A DNA stretch of 64,000 nt from Umezawaea tangerina (GTDB lineage: Bacteria; Actinomycetota; Actinomycetes; Mycobacteriales; Pseudonocardiaceae). The DNA is taken from the NCBI RefSeq assembly GCF_003002815.1, contig NZ_PVTF01000001.1, positions 992,001-1,056,000 of the forward strand. The letters run 5' to 3'. A model generated the notes under the pieces. It was not told where the DNA came from and did no database searches. It saw only the letters and a program-made list of their open reading frames with translations. Numbering within the stretch: position 1 is the first letter of the stretch; each line of letters opens with the position of its first letter. Positions 5,968-20,932 of this stretch are shown here, in pieces. Both the position numbers and the translations under genes were made by a program.

Positions 5968-6955
5968 GCCGATCCTCGAGGTCGTCGACCTCGTCAAGCA
6001 CTTCCCGGTCCGCGTCGGCGTGCTGTTCAAGCGCACCATCGGCCAGGTCAAGGCCGTCGACGGCGTCTCCTTCTCGTTGGCCAAGGGCGAGACCCTCGGC
6101 GTGGTGGGGGAGTCCGGCTGCGGGAAGTCCACTTTGGCCCAGGTGCTCATGCGCCTCGAACCGCCCACCTCCGGGACCGCCAGGTTCGAGGGCCGCGACA
6201 TCTTCGCCATGCGGGGCGCCGAGCTGCGGCGGCTGCGGCGCGACATCCAGATCGTGCTCCAGGACCCGTACACCTCGCTCAACCCGCGGATGACCGTCGG
6301 CGACATCGTCGGCGAACCGTTCGAGATCCACACCGACGTGGCGCCCAAGGGCTCGCGGCGCAAGAAGGTCCAGGAGCTCCTGGACACCGTCGGCCTGAAC
6401 CCCGAGCACATCAACCGCTACCCGCACCAGTTCTCCGGTGGGCAGCGCCAGCGCATCGGCATCGCCCGCGCACTCGCCCTGCGCCCCAAGGTGATCGTCT
6501 GCGACGAACCGGTGTCCGCTTTGGACGTCTCCATCCAGGCCCAGGTCATGAACCTCCTCGGCGAGCTCCAGTCCGACCTCGGCCTGTCCTACGTCTTCAT
6601 CGCCCACGACCTGTCCGTGGTCCGCCACCTGTCCGACCGCGTCGCCGTCATGTACCTGGGCAAGGTCGTCGAGATCGGCACCGAGGACCAGATCTACGAA
6701 CGCCCCACCCACCCCTACACCCAGGCCCTCCTCTCCGCCGTCCCCGTCCCCGACCCCACCCAACGCGGCCGCCGCGACGTCATCCGCCTCACCGGCGACG
6801 TCCCCTCCCCCATCAACCCCCCTTCCGGCTGCCACTTCCGCACCCGCTGCTGGAAGGCCCAGGACATCTGCGCCACCGACGAACCAGCCCTCACCACCCG
6901 CGTGGGCGACCACCCCAGCGCTTGTCACTTCGCGGAGGAGCGGACGGTGGTGTGA
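5960..6955 (+). CDS. Oligopeptide ABC importer ATPase, OppF/DppF type
   Basis: 331-aa second ATPase, last gene of the importer operon. Walker [10 protein letters not shown], signature SGGQRQR, Walker [13 protein letters not shown]-loop IAHDL. The C-terminal domain again carries paired Cys ([15 protein letters not shown]). The start is a GTG inside the end of the preceding gene. The two ATPases are expected to form the heterodimeric motor of the importer. About 200 bp without a recognisable gene follow. Confidence 0.93.
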
Positions 6956-14395: not shown

Positions 14396-14576
14396 GGAAC
14401 GGGGCCGGAAGACTCAGTTCCAGCTGAGCTACTGGATCGATCCTCTCAGGCGTTATGCCCATCCGAGACGCTTCCCGCAGGTCAGCGCGCGGAGTGTCCG
14501 CGATCACCCGGCGACCGTGGTCACAACGGGCCCTCGGAACGCGCGATCACAGGGGTTCCGGTGCGACCATGTGCGT

Positions 14577-15902
14577 ATGGCTGCTGTGAAGTCGCAACCC
14601 ACGAGGATCGTCATCGTCGGCGGTGGGTACGTCGGTATGTACACCGCGCTGGGGTTGCAGAAGAAACTGCGTTCCGGTGAGGCGTCGGTGACCGTTGTCG
14701 ACCCGCAGCCTCACATGACCTACCAGCCCTTCCTCCCCGAGGCGGCGGCCGGCTCCATCGAGCCGCGCCACGTCGTGGTGCCGCTGCGCAAGGTCCTCAA
14801 CCGCTGCCACGTCGTGACCGGCCGCGTGACGAAGATCGAGCACGCGGACAAGTCCGTCACGCTGGAGACCGCCGACGGCCACGTCGAGACGATCGAGTAC
14901 GACGTGCTGGTCAACGCGCTCGGCTCGATCGCCCGCACGCTGCCCATCCCCGGCCTGGCCGAGCAGGGCATCGGCGTGAAGACCATCGGCGAGGCCATCT
15001 ACATCCGCAACCACGTGCTGTCGCGCCTCGACCAGGCCGCGAGCACCCGCGACCCGGAGCTGCGGCGCAGGCTGCTCAGCTTCGTCGTCATCGGCGGCGG
15101 GTTCGCCGGCATCGAGACGCTGGCCGAGCTGGAGGACATGGCCCGGTACGCGCTGCGCTACTACACGCAGCTCAAGCCCGAGGACATGAACTGGGTGCTC
15201 GTCGAGGCCACCAAGCGGGTCATGCCCGAGGTGAGCGAGAAGATGGGCGTCTACACCGTCCAGCAGCTCGAGAAGCGCGGCATGAAGGTCTTCCTCGACA
15301 CGAGGGTCAAGACCATGGAGAACGGCCACGTCGTCCTGGACGACGGCACCGAGTTCGACAGCGACACGATCATCTGGACCGCGGGCGTCAAGGCCAACCC
15401 CGTGCTGCGCAACACCGACCTGCCGCTCGACGAGCGCGGTCGCGTCCGCTGCACGGCCAAGCTCCAGGTCGAGGGCCTCGCGGGCGTCTGGTCGGCCGGT
15501 GACTGCTCGGCCGTGCCGGACCTGTCGCGCACCGAGGAGGACCCGACGGCGACGTGCAGCCCCTCGGCCCAGCACGCCGTGCGGCAGAGCAAGGTGCTCG
15601 TCGGCAACATCGTGGCCAGCCTGCGCGGCAAGGACCAGAAGGACTACTTCCACAAGTACATCGGCTCGGTCGCGGGTCTGGGCCTGTACAAGGGTGTCGC
15701 GGACGTCTACGGCATCAAGATGAAGGGCCTGCTGGCCTGGTTGGCCCACCGCGGCTACCACGTCGCCAAAATGCCCACCTTCAACCGCAAGTTCCGTGTT
15801 CTCATGGACTGGCTGCTCGCGTTCGTCAACGGACGCGAGGTCGTCGCCCTCGGTCAGATCAACGACCCGAAGGCGGAGTTCGACCGCGCTTCGAAGAGCT
15901 GA
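14577..15902 (+). CDS. ndh: Type II NADH dehydrogenase
   Basis: 441-aa NDH-2, a peripheral membrane flavoprotein that passes electrons from NADH to menaquinone without pumping protons. The N-terminal FAD-binding loop is IVGGGYVGMY, the NADH-binding loop VIGGGFAGIE near residue 175, and the second FAD motif AGDCSAVPD. The C-terminal helices that sit on the membrane follow. The ATG at 14577 is given; a GTG 6 bases upstream is in frame and equally possible. The 180 bp upstream hold no gene. A long hairpin follows the stop. Confidence 0.92.
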   Translation: MAAVKSQPTRIVIVGGGYVGMYTALGLQKKLRSGEASVTVVDPQPHMTYQPFLPEAAAGSIEPRHVVVPLRKVLNRCHVVTGRVTKIEHADKSVTLETADGHVETIEYDVLVNALGSIARTLPIPGLAEQGIGVKTIGEAIYIRNHVLSRLDQAASTRDPELRRRLLSFVVIGGGFAGIETLAELEDMARYALRYYTQLKPEDMNWVLVEATKRVMPEVSEKMGVYTVQQLEKRGMKVFLDTRVKTMENGHVVLDDGTEFDSDTIIWTAGVKANPVLRNTDLPLDERGRVRCTAKLQVEGLAGVWSAGDCSAVPDLSRTEEDPTATCSPSAQHAVRQSKVLVGNIVASLRGKDQKDYFHKYIGSVAGLGLYKGVADVYGIKMKGLLAWLAHRGYHVAKMPTFNRKFRVLMDWLLAFVNGREVVALGQINDPKAEFDRASKS

Positions 15903-16016: not shown

Positions 16017-16045
16017 TTGACATTGCGTTACGTGAACCCGAGACT
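16017..16045 (+). promoter_or_regulatory. Promoter of the RiPP-like operon
   Basis: A perfect -35 TTGACA (16017-16022), a 17-bp spacer and -10 GAGACT (16040-16045, one base from TAGACT) lie about 60 bases before the start of the 40-aa peptide gene. This is the clearest housekeeping-type promoter in the window. Confidence 0.65.
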
Positions 16046-16102
16046 ACTGCTTGTGCATCACCTGAAAGCGTGATGCGCGCGTTGGGGAAAGAGGTGACCG
16101 CG

Positions 16103-16225
16103 ATGTCCCTTGAGGAGCTGGCCGCACAGCTTCGCCGCGGTGAGATCGAGGACCGCGCTTTGGCCGAGTACGCCGCTGAGTACGTCACGGCCGGGAAGTG
16201 TTTCCGAAGCAAGAAAGACGACTGA
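16103..16225 (+). CDS. Candidate RiPP precursor peptide (40 aa)
   Basis: A 40-aa peptide with an excellent ribosome site (AAAGAGGTGA, 5-6 nt from the ATG). The first 30 residues are acidic and helical, with LEELAAQLRRGEIEDRALAE, as expected for a leader that an enzyme recognises. The last nine, KCFRSKKDD, are a different composition: Cys, Ser, three Lys and two Asp, residues that ATP-grasp ligases and flavin dehydrogenases could modify. Two bases separate its stop from the ATP-grasp gene. The tight operon with two tailoring-type enzymes is the main evidence that it is a modified peptide. No known precursor family was recognised. Confidence 0.65.
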   Translation: MSLEELAAQLRRGEIEDRALAEYAAEYVTAGKCFRSKKDD

Positions 16226-16227
16226 GC

Positions 16228-17367
16228 GTGACCGCTTCCGAGCGGGGGGTCGAGAGACCCCCGCTCGAAGCCGTAAGAGTACTGGCCGAACCGAGTCGCA
16301 CTCCGGTGAAGCCCACTCCGCTCCTCCTCCAAGGCCAGAACTACCTCTTCCGCTCGCCACCGAAGACCCTGGACTTCCAGGAGCAGGTGCACCGGATGGG
16401 CATGGTCGACGAAGGCGACGGCAGCCCGGTGCCCTGCGTGCTGGTGCTCGCGCGCAGCGCCGACATGGAGATGAACGAGCTCTCCATCGCCCTGGCCGAA
16501 CGCGGCATCCGGATGGCCCGCATCGACGCCGACCGCTGCGTCGACCTGCCGCTGACCGTCTACACCGACGCGCCCCTGGTCGAGCTCGACCGGTGGCTGC
16601 TGCGTCCGCTGCTGGTGTGGCGCAGGCACTTCGAGCTCTCCGCCCTCCCCGTCGAGCCCGGCACGCTGGCGGGCGCCTACGCCGTCGACCAGTGGGGCGC
16701 GGTGTCGAACTGGCTGGCCACCCGCGGTGACTGGGCGCACGTCAACCCCACCCGTTCCACGGCCCACCTCGACCGGCTCACCCAGCTGTCCGACGCGGCC
16801 TCGTTCGGCCTGACCATCCCGCGCACGGCGGTGACCACGCGCCCCGGCCGCACCCGGCCCGGCGGCGGGCACTGCATCGTGAAGACCACCGGGCGGCACC
16901 TGCTCGAACCGCGCCCCGGCGTGCAGCACGGCCTGTTCCCGCGCCCGCTGGAGACCAGCAGGTCCAGCGACGCGCCCGAGTCCGCCCCGGTGATCGTGCA
17001 GCAGTACCTGCCGTCGGAGACCGAGCTGCGGGTGTTCGTCGTGGGCGAGCGGTGCGTCGCCTACCAGGTCGACAAGCTCGACCCCGCCCAGCTGTGGGTC
17101 GACCCGGACGCCGTCCGGGTGACACCCACGACCGTGCCCGCGGCGGTGACGGACAAGCTGCTGGCGTTAGCCCGTTACTGGAAGGTGCAGGTCGCGGCGT
17201 TCGACCTCCTGGTGACGGGCAAGGACCACGTCTTCCTGGAAGTGAACGTCAACTGCGACTGGCGATGGTTCGAACACCGCGCTGAGGACACCCTGGTGTC
17301 GGACGCGGTGCACGACTGGGTGGCGTCGCGCTTCAAGGAGCTGATAGGTGCGGGCAAAGGTCGCTGA
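16228..17367 (+). CDS. MvdC/MvdD-like ATP-grasp ligase
   Basis: 379 aa. The C-terminal half is an ATP-grasp fold like that of the graspetide ligases MvdC/MvdD: GGGHCIVKTT, VIVQQYLPSETELRVFVVG, then FDLLVTGKDHVFLEVNVNCD with the metal-binding Glu/Asn. Family members join side-chain carboxylates to amines or hydroxyls in peptides. The GTG at 16228 is 2 nt after the peptide gene stop, and the gene overlaps the dehydrogenase gene by 20 bp. An in-frame TTA codon lies at 17167-17169 (codon 314), a codon that is nearly absent from this window. The substrate is inferred to be the 40-aa peptide. Confidence 0.8.
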   Translation: MTASERGVERPPLEAVRVLAEPSRTPVKPTPLLLQGQNYLFRSPPKTLDFQEQVHRMGMVDEGDGSPVPCVLVLARSADMEMNELSIALAERGIRMARIDADRCVDLPLTVYTDAPLVELDRWLLRPLLVWRRHFELSALPVEPGTLAGAYAVDQWGAVSNWLATRGDWAHVNPTRSTAHLDRLTQLSDAASFGLTIPRTAVTTRPGRTRPGGGHCIVKTTGRHLLEPRPGVQHGLFPRPLETSRSSDAPESAPVIVQQYLPSETELRVFVVGERCVAYQVDKLDPAQLWVDPDAVRVTPTTVPAAVTDKLLALARYWKVQVAAFDLLVTGKDHVFLEVNVNCDWRWFEHRAEDTLVSDAVHDWVASRFKELIGAGKGR

Positions 17368-18418
17368 ACACTCGACGCTGTTCTACGAGAACGGCGCCGT
17401 GGTCTGGGACGACTACCTGCACCACCGGCAGTTCGCCATCAGCGAGACCGCCGAGCTGCTCTGCCGCAAGTTCACCACCTTCACCGAGGTCGACGACCTC
17501 CTCGCCCCGCTGGGCGAGGAGGACCGCGCCGTGCTGCGCCGGGTGCTCGACGAGCTCGTGGCCGCGGGCGTGCTCATCGTGGAGGGCTCGCCCGAGCACG
17601 AGGCCGAGCTGGCGATGCTCGACGGGTGGTCCAGCTGGGGCGCTTCCGCCCGGCACTTCCACTTCGCCAGCCGCACGCTGGCGGGCGCCGAGTACCTGGC
17701 CGCCGACGAGCACGACGCGGTGCTGGAGGCCAAGCTCGACGAGGAGCCGCCGCCCGCCCCGTTCCGCACCCTCGGCGGCGACGCGGTCGCCTTGCCGGTG
17801 CTGCCTGCCCGGCCGAGCTGGGGCGAGACCGGTGTCCTCGACGTCCTGCTGGCCCGCCGCACCACCCGCGAGTTCGGCACCGACGGCCTCGCGCTGGAGC
17901 AGGTCGGCGAGCTGCTGGCCGTGCTCGCCGGGCCGTCGCCGATGAGGTCGCGCATCGGCCGTTCCGGGACCGTGTTCAAGACCAGCCCGTCCGGCGGCGG
18001 CCGCCACCCGGTGGAGCTGTACGCCCACGTCCGCGACGTCGAGGGCCTGCCCGCGGGCTGGTACCACTACGACGGTCTCCGGCACGCGCTGGAGCCCCTC
18101 GGACCGGAGTGGCCCGCCGAGCGGATCGCCGAGGCGGCCGGCGACCAGGAGTGGGTCGGAGAGGCCCCACTGGTCCTGGCCTACACTGCCGTGCTCGAAC
18201 GCACCCGCTGGCGCTACGACACCTCTCGCGCCTACCGGGTCGTGCAGATGGATGTCGGCCACCTGTCGCAGACCGCGTACCTGGTGGCCACGGCGATGGG
18301 ATTGGGAGTCGGCTACACGGCGGCTCTCCGGGACGAACTGGTGGAACGGGCAATCGGCTGTGACGCCTATCACGAAGTGGTATTGGGGATGACGGTCGTC
18401 GGTCCATTACGCAAATGA
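17348..18418 (+). CDS. SagB/ThcOx-type flavin dehydrogenase
   Basis: 356 aa. The C-terminal half is a nitroreductase-fold FMN enzyme of the SagB group: LLARRTTREFG binds FMN phosphate, SPSGGGRHPVELYAHV lines the flavin, and MGLGVGYTAALRDELVERAIG closes the fold. The first 90 residues look like a small winged-helix region, as is usual for standalone SagB proteins, and could bind a leader peptide. SagB enzymes oxidise azolines to azoles in RiPPs, but no YcaO cyclodehydratase is present here, so the reaction is open. A TTA codon lies at 18407-18409, three codons before the stop. Confidence 0.82.
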   Translation: MRAKVAEHSTLFYENGAVVWDDYLHHRQFAISETAELLCRKFTTFTEVDDLLAPLGEEDRAVLRRVLDELVAAGVLIVEGSPEHEAELAMLDGWSSWGASARHFHFASRTLAGAEYLAADEHDAVLEAKLDEEPPPAPFRTLGGDAVALPVLPARPSWGETGVLDVLLARRTTREFGTDGLALEQVGELLAVLAGPSPMRSRIGRSGTVFKTSPSGGGRHPVELYAHVRDVEGLPAGWYHYDGLRHALEPLGPEWPAERIAEAAGDQEWVGEAPLVLAYTAVLERTRWRYDTSRAYRVVQMDVGHLSQTAYLVATAMGLGVGYTAALRDELVERAIGCDAYHEVVLGMTVVGPLRK

Positions 18419-18505: not shown

Positions 18506-18580
18506 GCCCCCGTAGCCCAACCGGCAGAGGCAGGCCCCTTAAAAGGGTCACAGGTACGGGTTCGACTCCCGTCGGGGGCA
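18506..18580 (+). tRNA. tRNA with UAA anticodon and class I variable loop (tRNA-Leu-like)
   Basis: A 75-nt cloverleaf: acceptor GCCCCCG/CGGGGGC with A73, D-arm with GG in the loop, anticodon stem GGCCC/GGGTC, loop CTTAAAA giving anticodon UAA, T-arm ACGGG-TTCGACT-CCCGT. CCA is not encoded. The UAA anticodon reads UUA (Leu), but the variable region is only 6 nt (ACAGGT). Normal bacterial tRNA-Leu is class II with a long variable arm. The D-stem has one C-A mismatch. It starts 88 bases after the SagB-type gene. Confidence 0.85.
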
Positions 18581-19279
18581 CTACTGCTGTTAAGCATAGA
18601 CAACGTTCTGGCCTGTGCAAACCTGACTTGGAATCATCCTACGACTCCGGGTCGGTCACGGATCCGGTCGTCGGCGCGCGTTCTCACTCCCACTTAGCGA
18701 TTACTCCTTTGGAGTGAATTCCAGGTGACTGGGCGTAGTGGTGAAAACGAAGTGGGACAGGTGCGCCCAGCGGGGGTGACACCTGCTGTGCGGCCGGGTG
18801 ACCAGGGTCGACGGGCGGCCCCGCGAGGTTGCGGAAAACGAGTGGTCCGCGACGTGCGGAACTCTTATGGGCCGGGGTGCCGCGGTTTCGTAACAACGAT
18901 TCGAGGAAATGACCGCTGGTAGCGGCCGCGGCGTGGAACCGAACTGGTCGCACGTCGGCGGAGTGCCGTGCGCGACCCGGACGACAAGGTTGTGGCACAA
19001 CTTCTCCGCACCGCGTCCGGCATCGCATTCCGCACCCGGTCATCGGTGTCGACCGGACGCGCTTCCCGCTTGTCGTGCCGATCCCCGCAGGTCTTTCCGG
19101 TAATCGCCCGCGAGTCGCGGAACACATGCCGGGAGTGGGGTGCGGGCACTACTCGCGCCACCTGCCGGAACGTGTTCGATCCCGGTGATCGGCACGACTC
19201 GGGGGACCCGCCGAACGGGTGAATGTGGACGATCGCGAAGTGACCATCCGCATTCACCGGGCGAAGTCGCGCGGTCCGG
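18581..19279 (+). other. 700-bp spacer without a recognisable gene
   Basis: Short ORFs exist on both strands, but none has a ribosome site, consistent GC3 pattern or recognisable product. Local GC is lower than in neighbouring genes. No tRNA, repeat or clear terminator was seen. It could hold a decayed gene or the promoter region of unseen small RNAs. Confidence 0.4.
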
Positions 19280-20932
19280 TCAGACGACGACGGCGGACGC
19301 GCTCCACGCGGTGACGACCTCGTCCAGCACGGCCAGCGGCAGCGGCCCGCCCGCGAGCACCAGGTCGTGGAAGGCGCGGATGTCGAAGTCGTCGCCCAGC
19401 GCCCGCTCGGCCTCGGCGCGGATCCGCTGGATCTCCAGCCGACCGACCATGTAGGCCAGCGCCTGTCCGGGCGCGGCGATGTAGCGGTCCACCTCCGACT
19501 CGATCTCCACGAGCGGCAGCGGCGTGTTCCCGCGCAGGTAGTCGACGGCCTGGGCGCGGCTCCAGCCGAGCGCGTGCAGGCCGGTGTCCACGACGAGCCT
19601 GCCCGCGCGCATCGAGTCCAGCGACAGCATCCCCAGCCGCGAGGTGTCGTCGGAGTACAGGCCCATCTCGTCGGCCAGCCGCTCGCAGTACAGGCCCCAG
19701 CCCTCCAGGTAGGCGGTCACCGCGGCCAGCCTGCGCAGCATCGGCAGCCCGGTCAGGCCCTGGGCCAGGGTGATCTGGAAGTGGTGGCCGGGAACGGCCT
19801 CGTGGAACGCGATGGCCTCGGACTGGTAGCGGTGCCGCTCCCGGGCCCGCGAGGTGTTCGCGTAGTACGTGCCGGGACGCGAGCCGTCCATCGCGCCCGG
19901 CGAGTAGTAGGCGGTCGGGGCGCCGGGCGCCTCCGTCTCCGGCACGGCCGCGACCACGCACGCCGAGTCGGGCAGGGTGCCGAACCACTCCGGCGCGGCG
20001 GCCTCGGCCCGCGTCACGGTGTCGCGCGCGGCGCCGAGCATCTCCTCGGCGTCCCGCCAGCGCAGCTCCGGGTCGGTGCGCATCCGGTCGAAGATCTCGG
20101 CCTGGTCGGACGTGCCGAACACCCGCTGCCCGAGCACGGCGTACTCCTCGGCGAGCTCGGCCATCAGCGCCAGCCCGGTCTCGTGCAGCTCGTCGGGCGT
20201 GCGGGAGGTCGTGGTGTGCACCCGAGCCAGCGCGCTGTAGATCGCGGCGCCGTCGGGCAGCCAGCACAGCCCAGGACGGCCCTCGGGGCGGCCCGCGGGC
20301 AGGACCTCCTCCTCCAACACGTCCCGGTAGCGCCGGTAGGCGGGCCGCACGGCCTCGGCGAGCAGCCGGTCGCGCTCGGCGGTGAAGCCGGGCTCGGCGT
20401 GCTCCTGGCGGGCCAGCGGGTCCTCGTCGGCGGAGGTGGCCAGGTAGCGGTCGACGAACGCGATGGCGTCGCGGACCAGGTGCGCCACCGGCAGGCGGCC
20501 CGCCAGCAGGCCTGCCCGGTGCCGTTCGGCCAGCACGTCGAGGACACCGGGCACGGCGGCGAGCCGGAGCAGGTAGTCGCGGCCCTGCTCGGGGGTGGTC
20601 ACGGCGACCATCGGCAGGATCGTCAGCAGCGCGCCCGCGGGGGCGAAGAACGACGCGGTGATCGTGTACTCGGCGGAGCGCGCGTCCAGCCGGTCGACGA
20701 TCGCCTCCGCCTGCTGCGCGACGACCGCGCGGGTGACCGGGTCGCCGGTCGCGAGGGCCCGCGCGCGGGCCGCGACGTCCGCGGCGGCGGCGCGCAGGGC
20801 CACCTCGCCCTCCTCGCTGAGGTCGGGCAGCCGGTCGTCGTACCCGCTGATGCCGTAGAGGCTCGCGTCCAGTGGGTCGGCCGCCATCATCAGCGCGAAC
20901 AGCTCGTCCGCCAGCTCCGTCGTCTCCGTCAT
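19280..20932 (-). CDS. DUF885 family protein, putative metallopeptidase
   Basis: 550-aa DUF885 protein, a family thought to be zinc carboxypeptidase-like. The core motif is FHEAVPGHHFQ, a variant HExxxGHH metal site, followed by the family signature EGWGLYCERLADE, which contributes the third ligand. No signal peptide, so probably cytoplasmic. A -10-like TAGCAT (20940-20945) is 7 nt before the ATG, suggesting a leaderless mRNA separate from the response regulator gene just upstream on the same strand. A second DUF885 gene lies at 52.7 kb. Confidence 0.82.
   Translation of the reverse strand: MTETTELADELFALMMAADPLDASLYGISGYDDRLPDLSEEGEVALRAAAADVAARARALATGDPVTRAVVAQQAEAIVDRLDARSAEYTITASFFAPAGALLTILPMVAVTTPEQGRDYLLRLAAVPGVLDVLAERHRAGLLAGRLPVAHLVRDAIAFVDRYLATSADEDPLARQEHAEPGFTAERDRLLAEAVRPAYRRYRDVLEEEVLPAGRPEGRPGLCWLPDGAAIYSALARVHTTTSRTPDELHETGLALMAELAEEYAVLGQRVFGTSDQAEIFDRMRTDPELRWRDAEEMLGAARDTVTRAEAAAPEWFGTLPDSACVVAAVPETEAPGAPTAYYSPGAMDGSRPGTYYANTSRARERHRYQSEAIAFHEAVPGHHFQITLAQGLTGLPMLRRLAAVTAYLEGWGLYCERLADEMGLYSDDTSRLGMLSLDSMRAGRLVVDTGLHALGWSRAQAVDYLRGNTPLPLVEIESEVDRYIAAPGQALAYMVGRLEIQRIRAEAERALGDDFDIRAFHDLVLAGGPLPLAVLDEVVTAWSASAVVV

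Follow-up and report, generated by a model that had tools for sequence, protein, structure and literature searches.

In the window, a stretch of 64,000 nucleotides from Umezawaea tangerina, a promoter, a 40-aa ORF, an ATP-grasp gene and a SagB-like gene follow one another on the plus strand, between ndh and the gene for tRNA-Leu(UAA). Comparison with related genomes is best explained if this cassette, which sits at one fixed chromosomal spot, is a self-contained RiPP-type unit. The ATP-grasp enzyme probably modifies the tail of the peptide, whatever the chemistry, the peptide being its presumed substrate. The reading that we prefer, with a probability of roughly 0.45, is that it acts on the C-terminal carboxylate of the peptide. 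The SagB-like enzyme is best explained as a dispensable second enzyme, an FMN oxidase that would act on the product. The features are as follows.

14517..15902, plus strand: ndh, encoding an NDH-2 type oxidoreductase (Pfam Pyr_redox_2; NDH2_C below cut-off); left flank, outside the unit
16017..16045, plus strand: promoter (TTGACA, 17-bp spacer, GAGACT), conserved in 24 aligned loci, with L139 deviating
16103..16225, plus strand: 40-aa putative precursor or carrier peptide, leader plus KKDD tail (73 of 73 loci, selection, spacing)
16228..17367, plus strand: ATP-grasp ligase with predicted graspetide-synthetase fold (NCBIfam, AlphaFold model, Foldseek, PDB profile search)
17348..18418, plus strand: SagB-like FMN oxidoreductase, optional component
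18506..18581, plus strand: tRNA-Leu(UAA); right flank, outside the unit, also found in relatives without the cassette

The window peptide, MSLEELAAQLRRGEIEDRALAEYAAEYVTAGKCFRSKKDD, is 40 aa long; its ATG lies at 16103, its stop codon at 16223-16225 and its ribosome site, AGGTG, at 16092-16096. The promoter consists of TTGACA (16017-16022), 17 bases and GAGACT (16040-16045), a pattern with a single match in the whole genome when up to three mismatches are allowed. The ATP-grasp ORF extends from a GTG at 16228 to the stop codon at 17365-17367; its true start may be located downstream, as the first ~25 residues are not conserved. The SagB-like ORF starts with a GTG at 17348. The coordinates of the three ORFs in the earlier note (16103-16225, 16228-17367 and 17348-18418) were correct, as were the gap of 2 bp between peptide and ATP-grasp gene and the overlap of 20 bp between the latter and the SagB-like gene. 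In the 5′ region, the sequence CACCT (16059-16063) is able to pair with the ribosome site. Both motifs are nearly invariant in 19 sequences, which leaves no covariation by which to judge a hairpin; no covariation was found either for a 5-pair fold of this region.

A scan of named relatives retained 80 out of 216, and 72 of these 80 carry both ndh upstream and the peptide. The eight others (L147-L151 and L153-L155; L147 has a diverged peptide) were kept outside the peptide counts, which refer to 73 ndh-linked loci, that is, the 72 named ones plus the window. In all 72 orthologous named loci ndh is located upstream of the cassette. They correspond to 14 named genera: Umezawaea, Saccharothrix, Lentzea, Actinosynnema, Solihabitans, Goodfellowiella, Kutzneria, Gandjariella, Allokutzneria, Crossiella, Streptoalloteichus, Longimycelium, Saccharopolyspora and Actinoalloteichus. 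The nearest named genome is that of Umezawaea endophytica (L137), with an ATP-grasp protein 93% identical. Among 200 genomes drawn from the family (Pseudonocardiaceae, which are soil bacteria), 70 encode the ATP-grasp protein at 60% identity or more, two of them as partial copies; 65 of the 70 were fetched, and their species overlap with those of the 72 named loci. When 394 genomes were drawn from the whole class, only eight others had an ATP-grasp match at E ≤ 1e-20, with 33-40% identity. Across the 73 loci, the distances between ATP-grasp proteins parallel those between NDH proteins (r = 0.92), which fits vertical inheritance.

The limits of the unit were drawn from sites that lack it. Fourteen regions around the tRNA without ATP-grasp were fetched and 13 used (L305 was left out); L302, one of the regions without the cassette, comes from a genome that carries a distant pair elsewhere (L061). 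In nine of the 13 regions ndh ends 29-186 bp before tRNA-Leu(UAA), and in the remaining four ndh is absent, more distant or in another orientation. As the empty sites lack just these elements, we take the unit to comprise the promoter, the peptide, the ATP-grasp gene and, where present, the SagB gene. Analysis with ARAGORN located tRNA-Leu(UAA) just behind the last cassette gene in 31 of the 31 ndh-linked loci submitted, about 1 kb nearer in those missing SagB, and did not find it behind the last gene at six distant loci. ORF reading of the interval between ndh and tRNA-Leu(UAA) revealed no YcaO gene, in agreement with the earlier note, and no exporter, protease or PEARL (LanB-like) gene. No copies of SagB were found on viral contigs, nor of the L196 ATP-grasp in plasmids, and defence-system models gave no matches.

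The neighbours of the cassette were considered separately. A functional link to ndh is unlikely: no NDH relative is present in the fetched stretches of the distant pairs L061, L147 and L196-L198, which are those that the check covered (L246 and L247 were left out). That the tRNA is dedicated to the cassette was rejected, a similar tRNA being present in 199 of 200 family genomes and also beside ndh where the cassette is missing. This tRNA-Leu(UAA) (18506-18581) has only 76 bases and, by eye, no long variable arm; it has 74-79 bases in 31 related loci, and a search of the same genome with a crude pattern gave no tRNA-Leu(UAA) with a long arm. Beyond the tRNA, ~0.9 kb downstream and convergent with the cassette, a DUF885 protein is encoded on the other strand (19280-20932); a relative is found downstream in 18 of the 80 named loci.

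The earlier note had proposed to align the small ORFs upstream of homologous enzymes, and the alignment bears out its expectation: at every orthologous ATP-grasp gene examined (73 of 73, 14 named genera), a peptide with a conserved leader and a near-invariant Lys/Asp tail precedes the gene. The peptide ends with KKDD in 72 loci and with RKDD in one, from a Kutzneria MAG. Its length is of 40 aa in 48 loci and of 39 aa in 25, with 41 distinct sequences among the 73; with starts set by the leader motif, ATG is used in 53 and TTG in 20. From the last leader Tyr to the C-terminus there are 13 residues in 48 loci and 12 in 25. Within the tail, the second Lys is encoded by AAG (57) or AAA (16) and the last Asp by GAC (50) or GAT (23), the first Asp (position -2) being GAC in all 73 loci. 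In the 40-aa class dN/dS is ~0.17 (mean values from the 537 sequence pairs for which 0 < dS < 1, among 38 distinct sequences). The peptide is under purifying selection at the protein level. The window peptide contains no Pro and no GG, and hence neither a GG nor a Phhx(1,2)h leader motif.

When compared with NCBIfam, the window ATP-grasp protein matched GRASP_SAV_5884 (3.9e-25), MvdD (6.7e-15) and MvdC (1e-14), with scores that fall well short of the respective cut-offs. The graspetide ligase models were not reached, the best score being 88.7 bits for the window protein and 157.1 bits for five distant relatives, with a cut-off of 350. The AlphaFold model has a mean pLDDT of 77.6, residues 1-43 and 223-247 being poor. 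With this model, Foldseek ranked MdnC, AMdnB, PsnB, CdnC and PruB before RimK, and a profile search of the PDB likewise placed graspetide synthetases before RimK. The fold, as modelled, is that of a graspetide synthetase. An alignment of 16 ATP-grasp rows shows seven invariant residues (Lys219, Asp326, Glu338, Asp344, Trp345, Trp347 and Glu349), of which Lys219, Asp326 and Glu338 are presumably the ATP/Mg ligands typical of the superfamily.

Seven distant ATP-grasp/SagB pairs were found with a leader-like small ORF upstream, their ATP-grasp proteins being 33-45% identical to the query used. The tail reads NHDKKDN in L147 (Actinomadura sp. DC4), VLKKDN in L246 and INKKDS in L247, the latter two from genomes that kinship codes assign to another class of Actinomycetota; for the peptides of L147 and L246, which lie inside longer frames, the start codon was chosen by us. 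The four others end differently, two with CHGG (ICKSCHGG in L061, YCKGCHGG in L196) and two with KTHC (PCAKTHC in L197, PCNKTHC in L198). In the seven pairs, 11-14 residues separate the leader Tyr from the C-terminus. Every tail has a Lys within its last six residues, and Asp at -2 is kept in every KKD tail. After the leader Tyr there is no Asp or Glu in L061, L197 and L198, and a single Asp in L196. The sequences CKSCHGG and CKGCHGG contain CxxCH, as do c-type haem sites, a likeness that is probably due to chance. The L247 ATP-grasp is complete and its SagB is cut by the contig end; in L248, of the same genus, a C-terminal piece of SagB (~5986-6438) occurs without ATP-grasp. The claim that no exporter accompanies the enzymes is true for the lineage of the window but not for three distant pairs, where an MFS gene lies one or two genes behind SagB: L061, L197 and L147, in the latter preceded by a gene for a JmjC-type protein.

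Two other families gave ATP-grasp matches in 48 of 341 and 10 of 101 genomes; 20 regions were fetched, three of which have SagB and a leader-like ORF. The 17 others show no SagB and no ORF judged leader-like (L209 holds a 25-aa ORF that could not be judged). A SagB profile matched 39 of 396 genomes of the phylum; three places were fetched, and most of the other matches span the nitroreductase domain alone. In the second class, ATP-grasp was present in 2 of 39 genomes of one family.

Taking these data into account, we propose that the peptide would be a precursor or carrier, its N-terminal part serving as recognition leader and its last residues, KKD followed by D, N or S, as substrate. The ATP-grasp enzyme would bind the leader, phosphorylate a carboxylate at the C-terminal end and join it to an amine. 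We favour activation of the alpha-carboxylate at the C-terminus, by analogy with RimK and the PEARLs, over that of an Asp side chain; the amine might be supplied by the side chain of a nearby Lys or by a separate molecule (an amine or an amino acid), and SagB, where present, would be an FMN oxidase of the ligation product. As the tail persists where SagB is missing, it would serve the ATP-grasp enzyme. The C-terminal carboxylate is the only one available in the tails of L061, L197 and L198, since no Asp or Glu follows the leader Tyr, and KKDD peptides may, by analogy, use this group too. In favour of this are also the synonymous codon change at two tail positions while KKDD is kept in 72 of 73 loci, and the recurrence of KKDN and KKDS in another class of the phylum and of KKDN in Actinomadura. 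Against it, the closest enzymes link one side chain to another; the Asp at -2, for which a purely C-terminal mechanism would have no need, is conserved in every KKD tail; the L196 tail has one Asp; acids are present in the leaders; and no exporter or protease belongs to the cassette. In addition, the CHGG and KTHC pairs have enzymes that share only 39-45% identity with those of KKDD type used in the comparison, and may work by a different chemistry. More tentatively, the cassettes could define a ligase group descended from graspetide synthetases that uses the alpha-carboxylate of a fixed scaffold peptide, vertically inherited in 14 named genera and with SagB optional. At the same tentative level, such a group might be a tRNA-independent counterpart of the PEARLs or, alternatively, form a lactam between a Lys side chain and the tail.

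Not far behind stands a minimal graspetide, given that the closest enzymes form side-chain links and that the Asp at -2 is conserved; here the ATP-grasp enzyme would make a side-chain lactam between Lys and Asp of KKD[DNS] and SagB would oxidise the product. We regard it as rather unlikely. It accounts well for the closest folds and profiles, those of graspetide synthetases, and for a tail that offers both Lys and Asp, the Asp at -2 being encoded by GAC at all 73 loci and found again in KKDN and KKDS; Lys isopeptide rings are moreover described for corallotide in the abstract of PMC13097080. It accounts poorly for the L061, L197 and L198 tails, for the one Arg at Lys -4, which would leave an adjacent Lys-Asp, for the strict C-terminal position and for the lack of Pro or GG motifs in the window peptide.

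It is improbable that the peptide is an accessory subunit or regulator of a ligase acting on a small molecule or protein. Its almost invariant sequence, unlike many RiPP cores, and the lack of exporter and protease in the cassette would suit such a role, and the same abstract (PMC13097080) mentions partner proteins for some graspetide synthetases. The distant pairs, however, swap tails while keeping leader and spacing, which is the usual leader/core layout.

The window SagB-like protein matched antibiot_sagB (3.5e-37; 127.5 bits, over the cut-off of 78.4) and, below cut-off, SagB_rel_DH_2 (4.3e-48). A putative RRE domain in its N-terminus would be placed as in ThcOx; RRE sequence searches gave no match. 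It has WRY in place of WKY/FKY, with Lys in 3 of 12 family members; presumably, the catalytic Lys of McbC corresponds to this Arg. SagB is present in 23 loci and missing in 47, three more being cut by contig ends (70 scorable of 73). The obligatory ATP-grasp/SagB pair that had been assumed is thus not supported, as the 47 loci without SagB keep the KKDD-type tail and at least five changes of state are needed on the tree (a quick tree, with long branches flagged). Repeated loss of an ancestral SagB is likely, a result that partly reflects the choice of rows, the outgroup pairs having mostly been picked for SagB; in L023 a short SagB remnant is left. An unlinked homologue (E ≤ 1e-20) was absent from 22 of 33 genomes searched (32 without SagB at the locus plus G192, whose locus is cut) and present in 11, where an unlinked SagB may act. 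No ATP-grasp relative was found beside five such homologues (L249-L253; stretches of 3.4-4.1 kb). Three of these genomes, L249, L252 and L253, are of one genus; one SagB relative has an in-frame TGA and two miss a middle stretch.

The earlier note had proposed Cys as the oxidation site, so that SagB would oxidise a Cys-derived ring built by the ATP-grasp enzyme. Loci with SagB do have a Cys within the last nine residues more often (11 of 23) than those without it (1 of 47), and the CHGG and KTHC tails contain Cys. Nevertheless, the proposal is weakened and now appears very unlikely: such a Cys is missing from 12 of the 23 SagB loci, seven of the 11 with it share one tail (KRFCSKKDD), only 13 of the 73 peptides have Cys in their last 12 residues, the KKDN/KKDS pairs have SagB and no Cys, and Arg replaces the catalytic Lys of McbC. 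The motif K-x-[FY] before the tail (23 of 23 SagB loci, 17 of 47 without, by hand count) was rejected as a residue tracking SagB; kinship confounds its distribution, and the KKDN/KKDS pairs do not have it. Least probable of all is a Pup-like tag whose C-terminus the ATP-grasp enzyme would link to lysines of target proteins: the peptide is small, conserved, invariant at its end, vertically inherited (r = 0.92) and without export, but no target is known, MFS genes occur at distant pairs and the ligase is graspetide-type, not PafA-type.

With respect to known systems, the enzyme resembles graspetide synthetases (MdnC, AMdnB, PsnB, CdnC, PruB) in fold, profile and a leader-plus-core precursor, and differs in NCBIfam scores far below cut-offs and in three distant tails without acidic acceptors (L061, L197 and L198). 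Graspetide cores have Ser, Thr or Lys as donors and Asp or Glu as acceptors; KKDD offers both kinds, those three tails no acceptor. Unlike the systems of SagB/ThcOx/McbC azoline oxidases, the cassette has no YcaO and the window protein has WRY. A SagB-family oxidoreductase, as in azole/azoline RiPPs, is present, and a conserved Cys/Ser/Thr core is not found, the last four residues being KKDD or RKDD. Pearlins/PEARLs, as portrayed in the available text of PMC11117183, share a possible C-terminal chemistry that passes through an acyl phosphate on a conserved scaffold peptide; here the ligase is an ATP-grasp, and the cassette contains no LanB-like ligase gene. The available text of PMC8939145 (2022) describes branch 6 ATP-grasp loci, with small precursors lacking the GG or Phhx(1,2)h motifs and mostly with a SagB-like nitroreductase, and gives no chemistry. 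The window shows this combination. Differences are the lack of SagB from most of the loci compared here, the KKDD tail and the fixed site; the branch 6 precursors include clusters 367 and 1115, to which the KKDD peptides may belong. The main text of PMC13097080 mentions no SagB or nitroreductase. In the open-licence literature, no characterised RiPP or graspetide case of SagB with ATP-grasp was found, nor, among the matches listed, the KKDD tail. The combination, for which the earlier note knew of no characterised RiPP class, had already been reported, as uncharacterised, in PMC8939145.

The unit is tiny, in most lineages a peptide and a ligase. Tails without Asp or Glu bear directly on whether ATP-grasp RiPP ligases use the peptide C-terminus. 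Many RiPP cores vary quickly; as this tail is nearly frozen in 14 named genera and recurs, with slight changes, in another class of the phylum, a fixed cellular role, such as that of a cofactor, signal or carrier, is suggested rather than that of a weapon.
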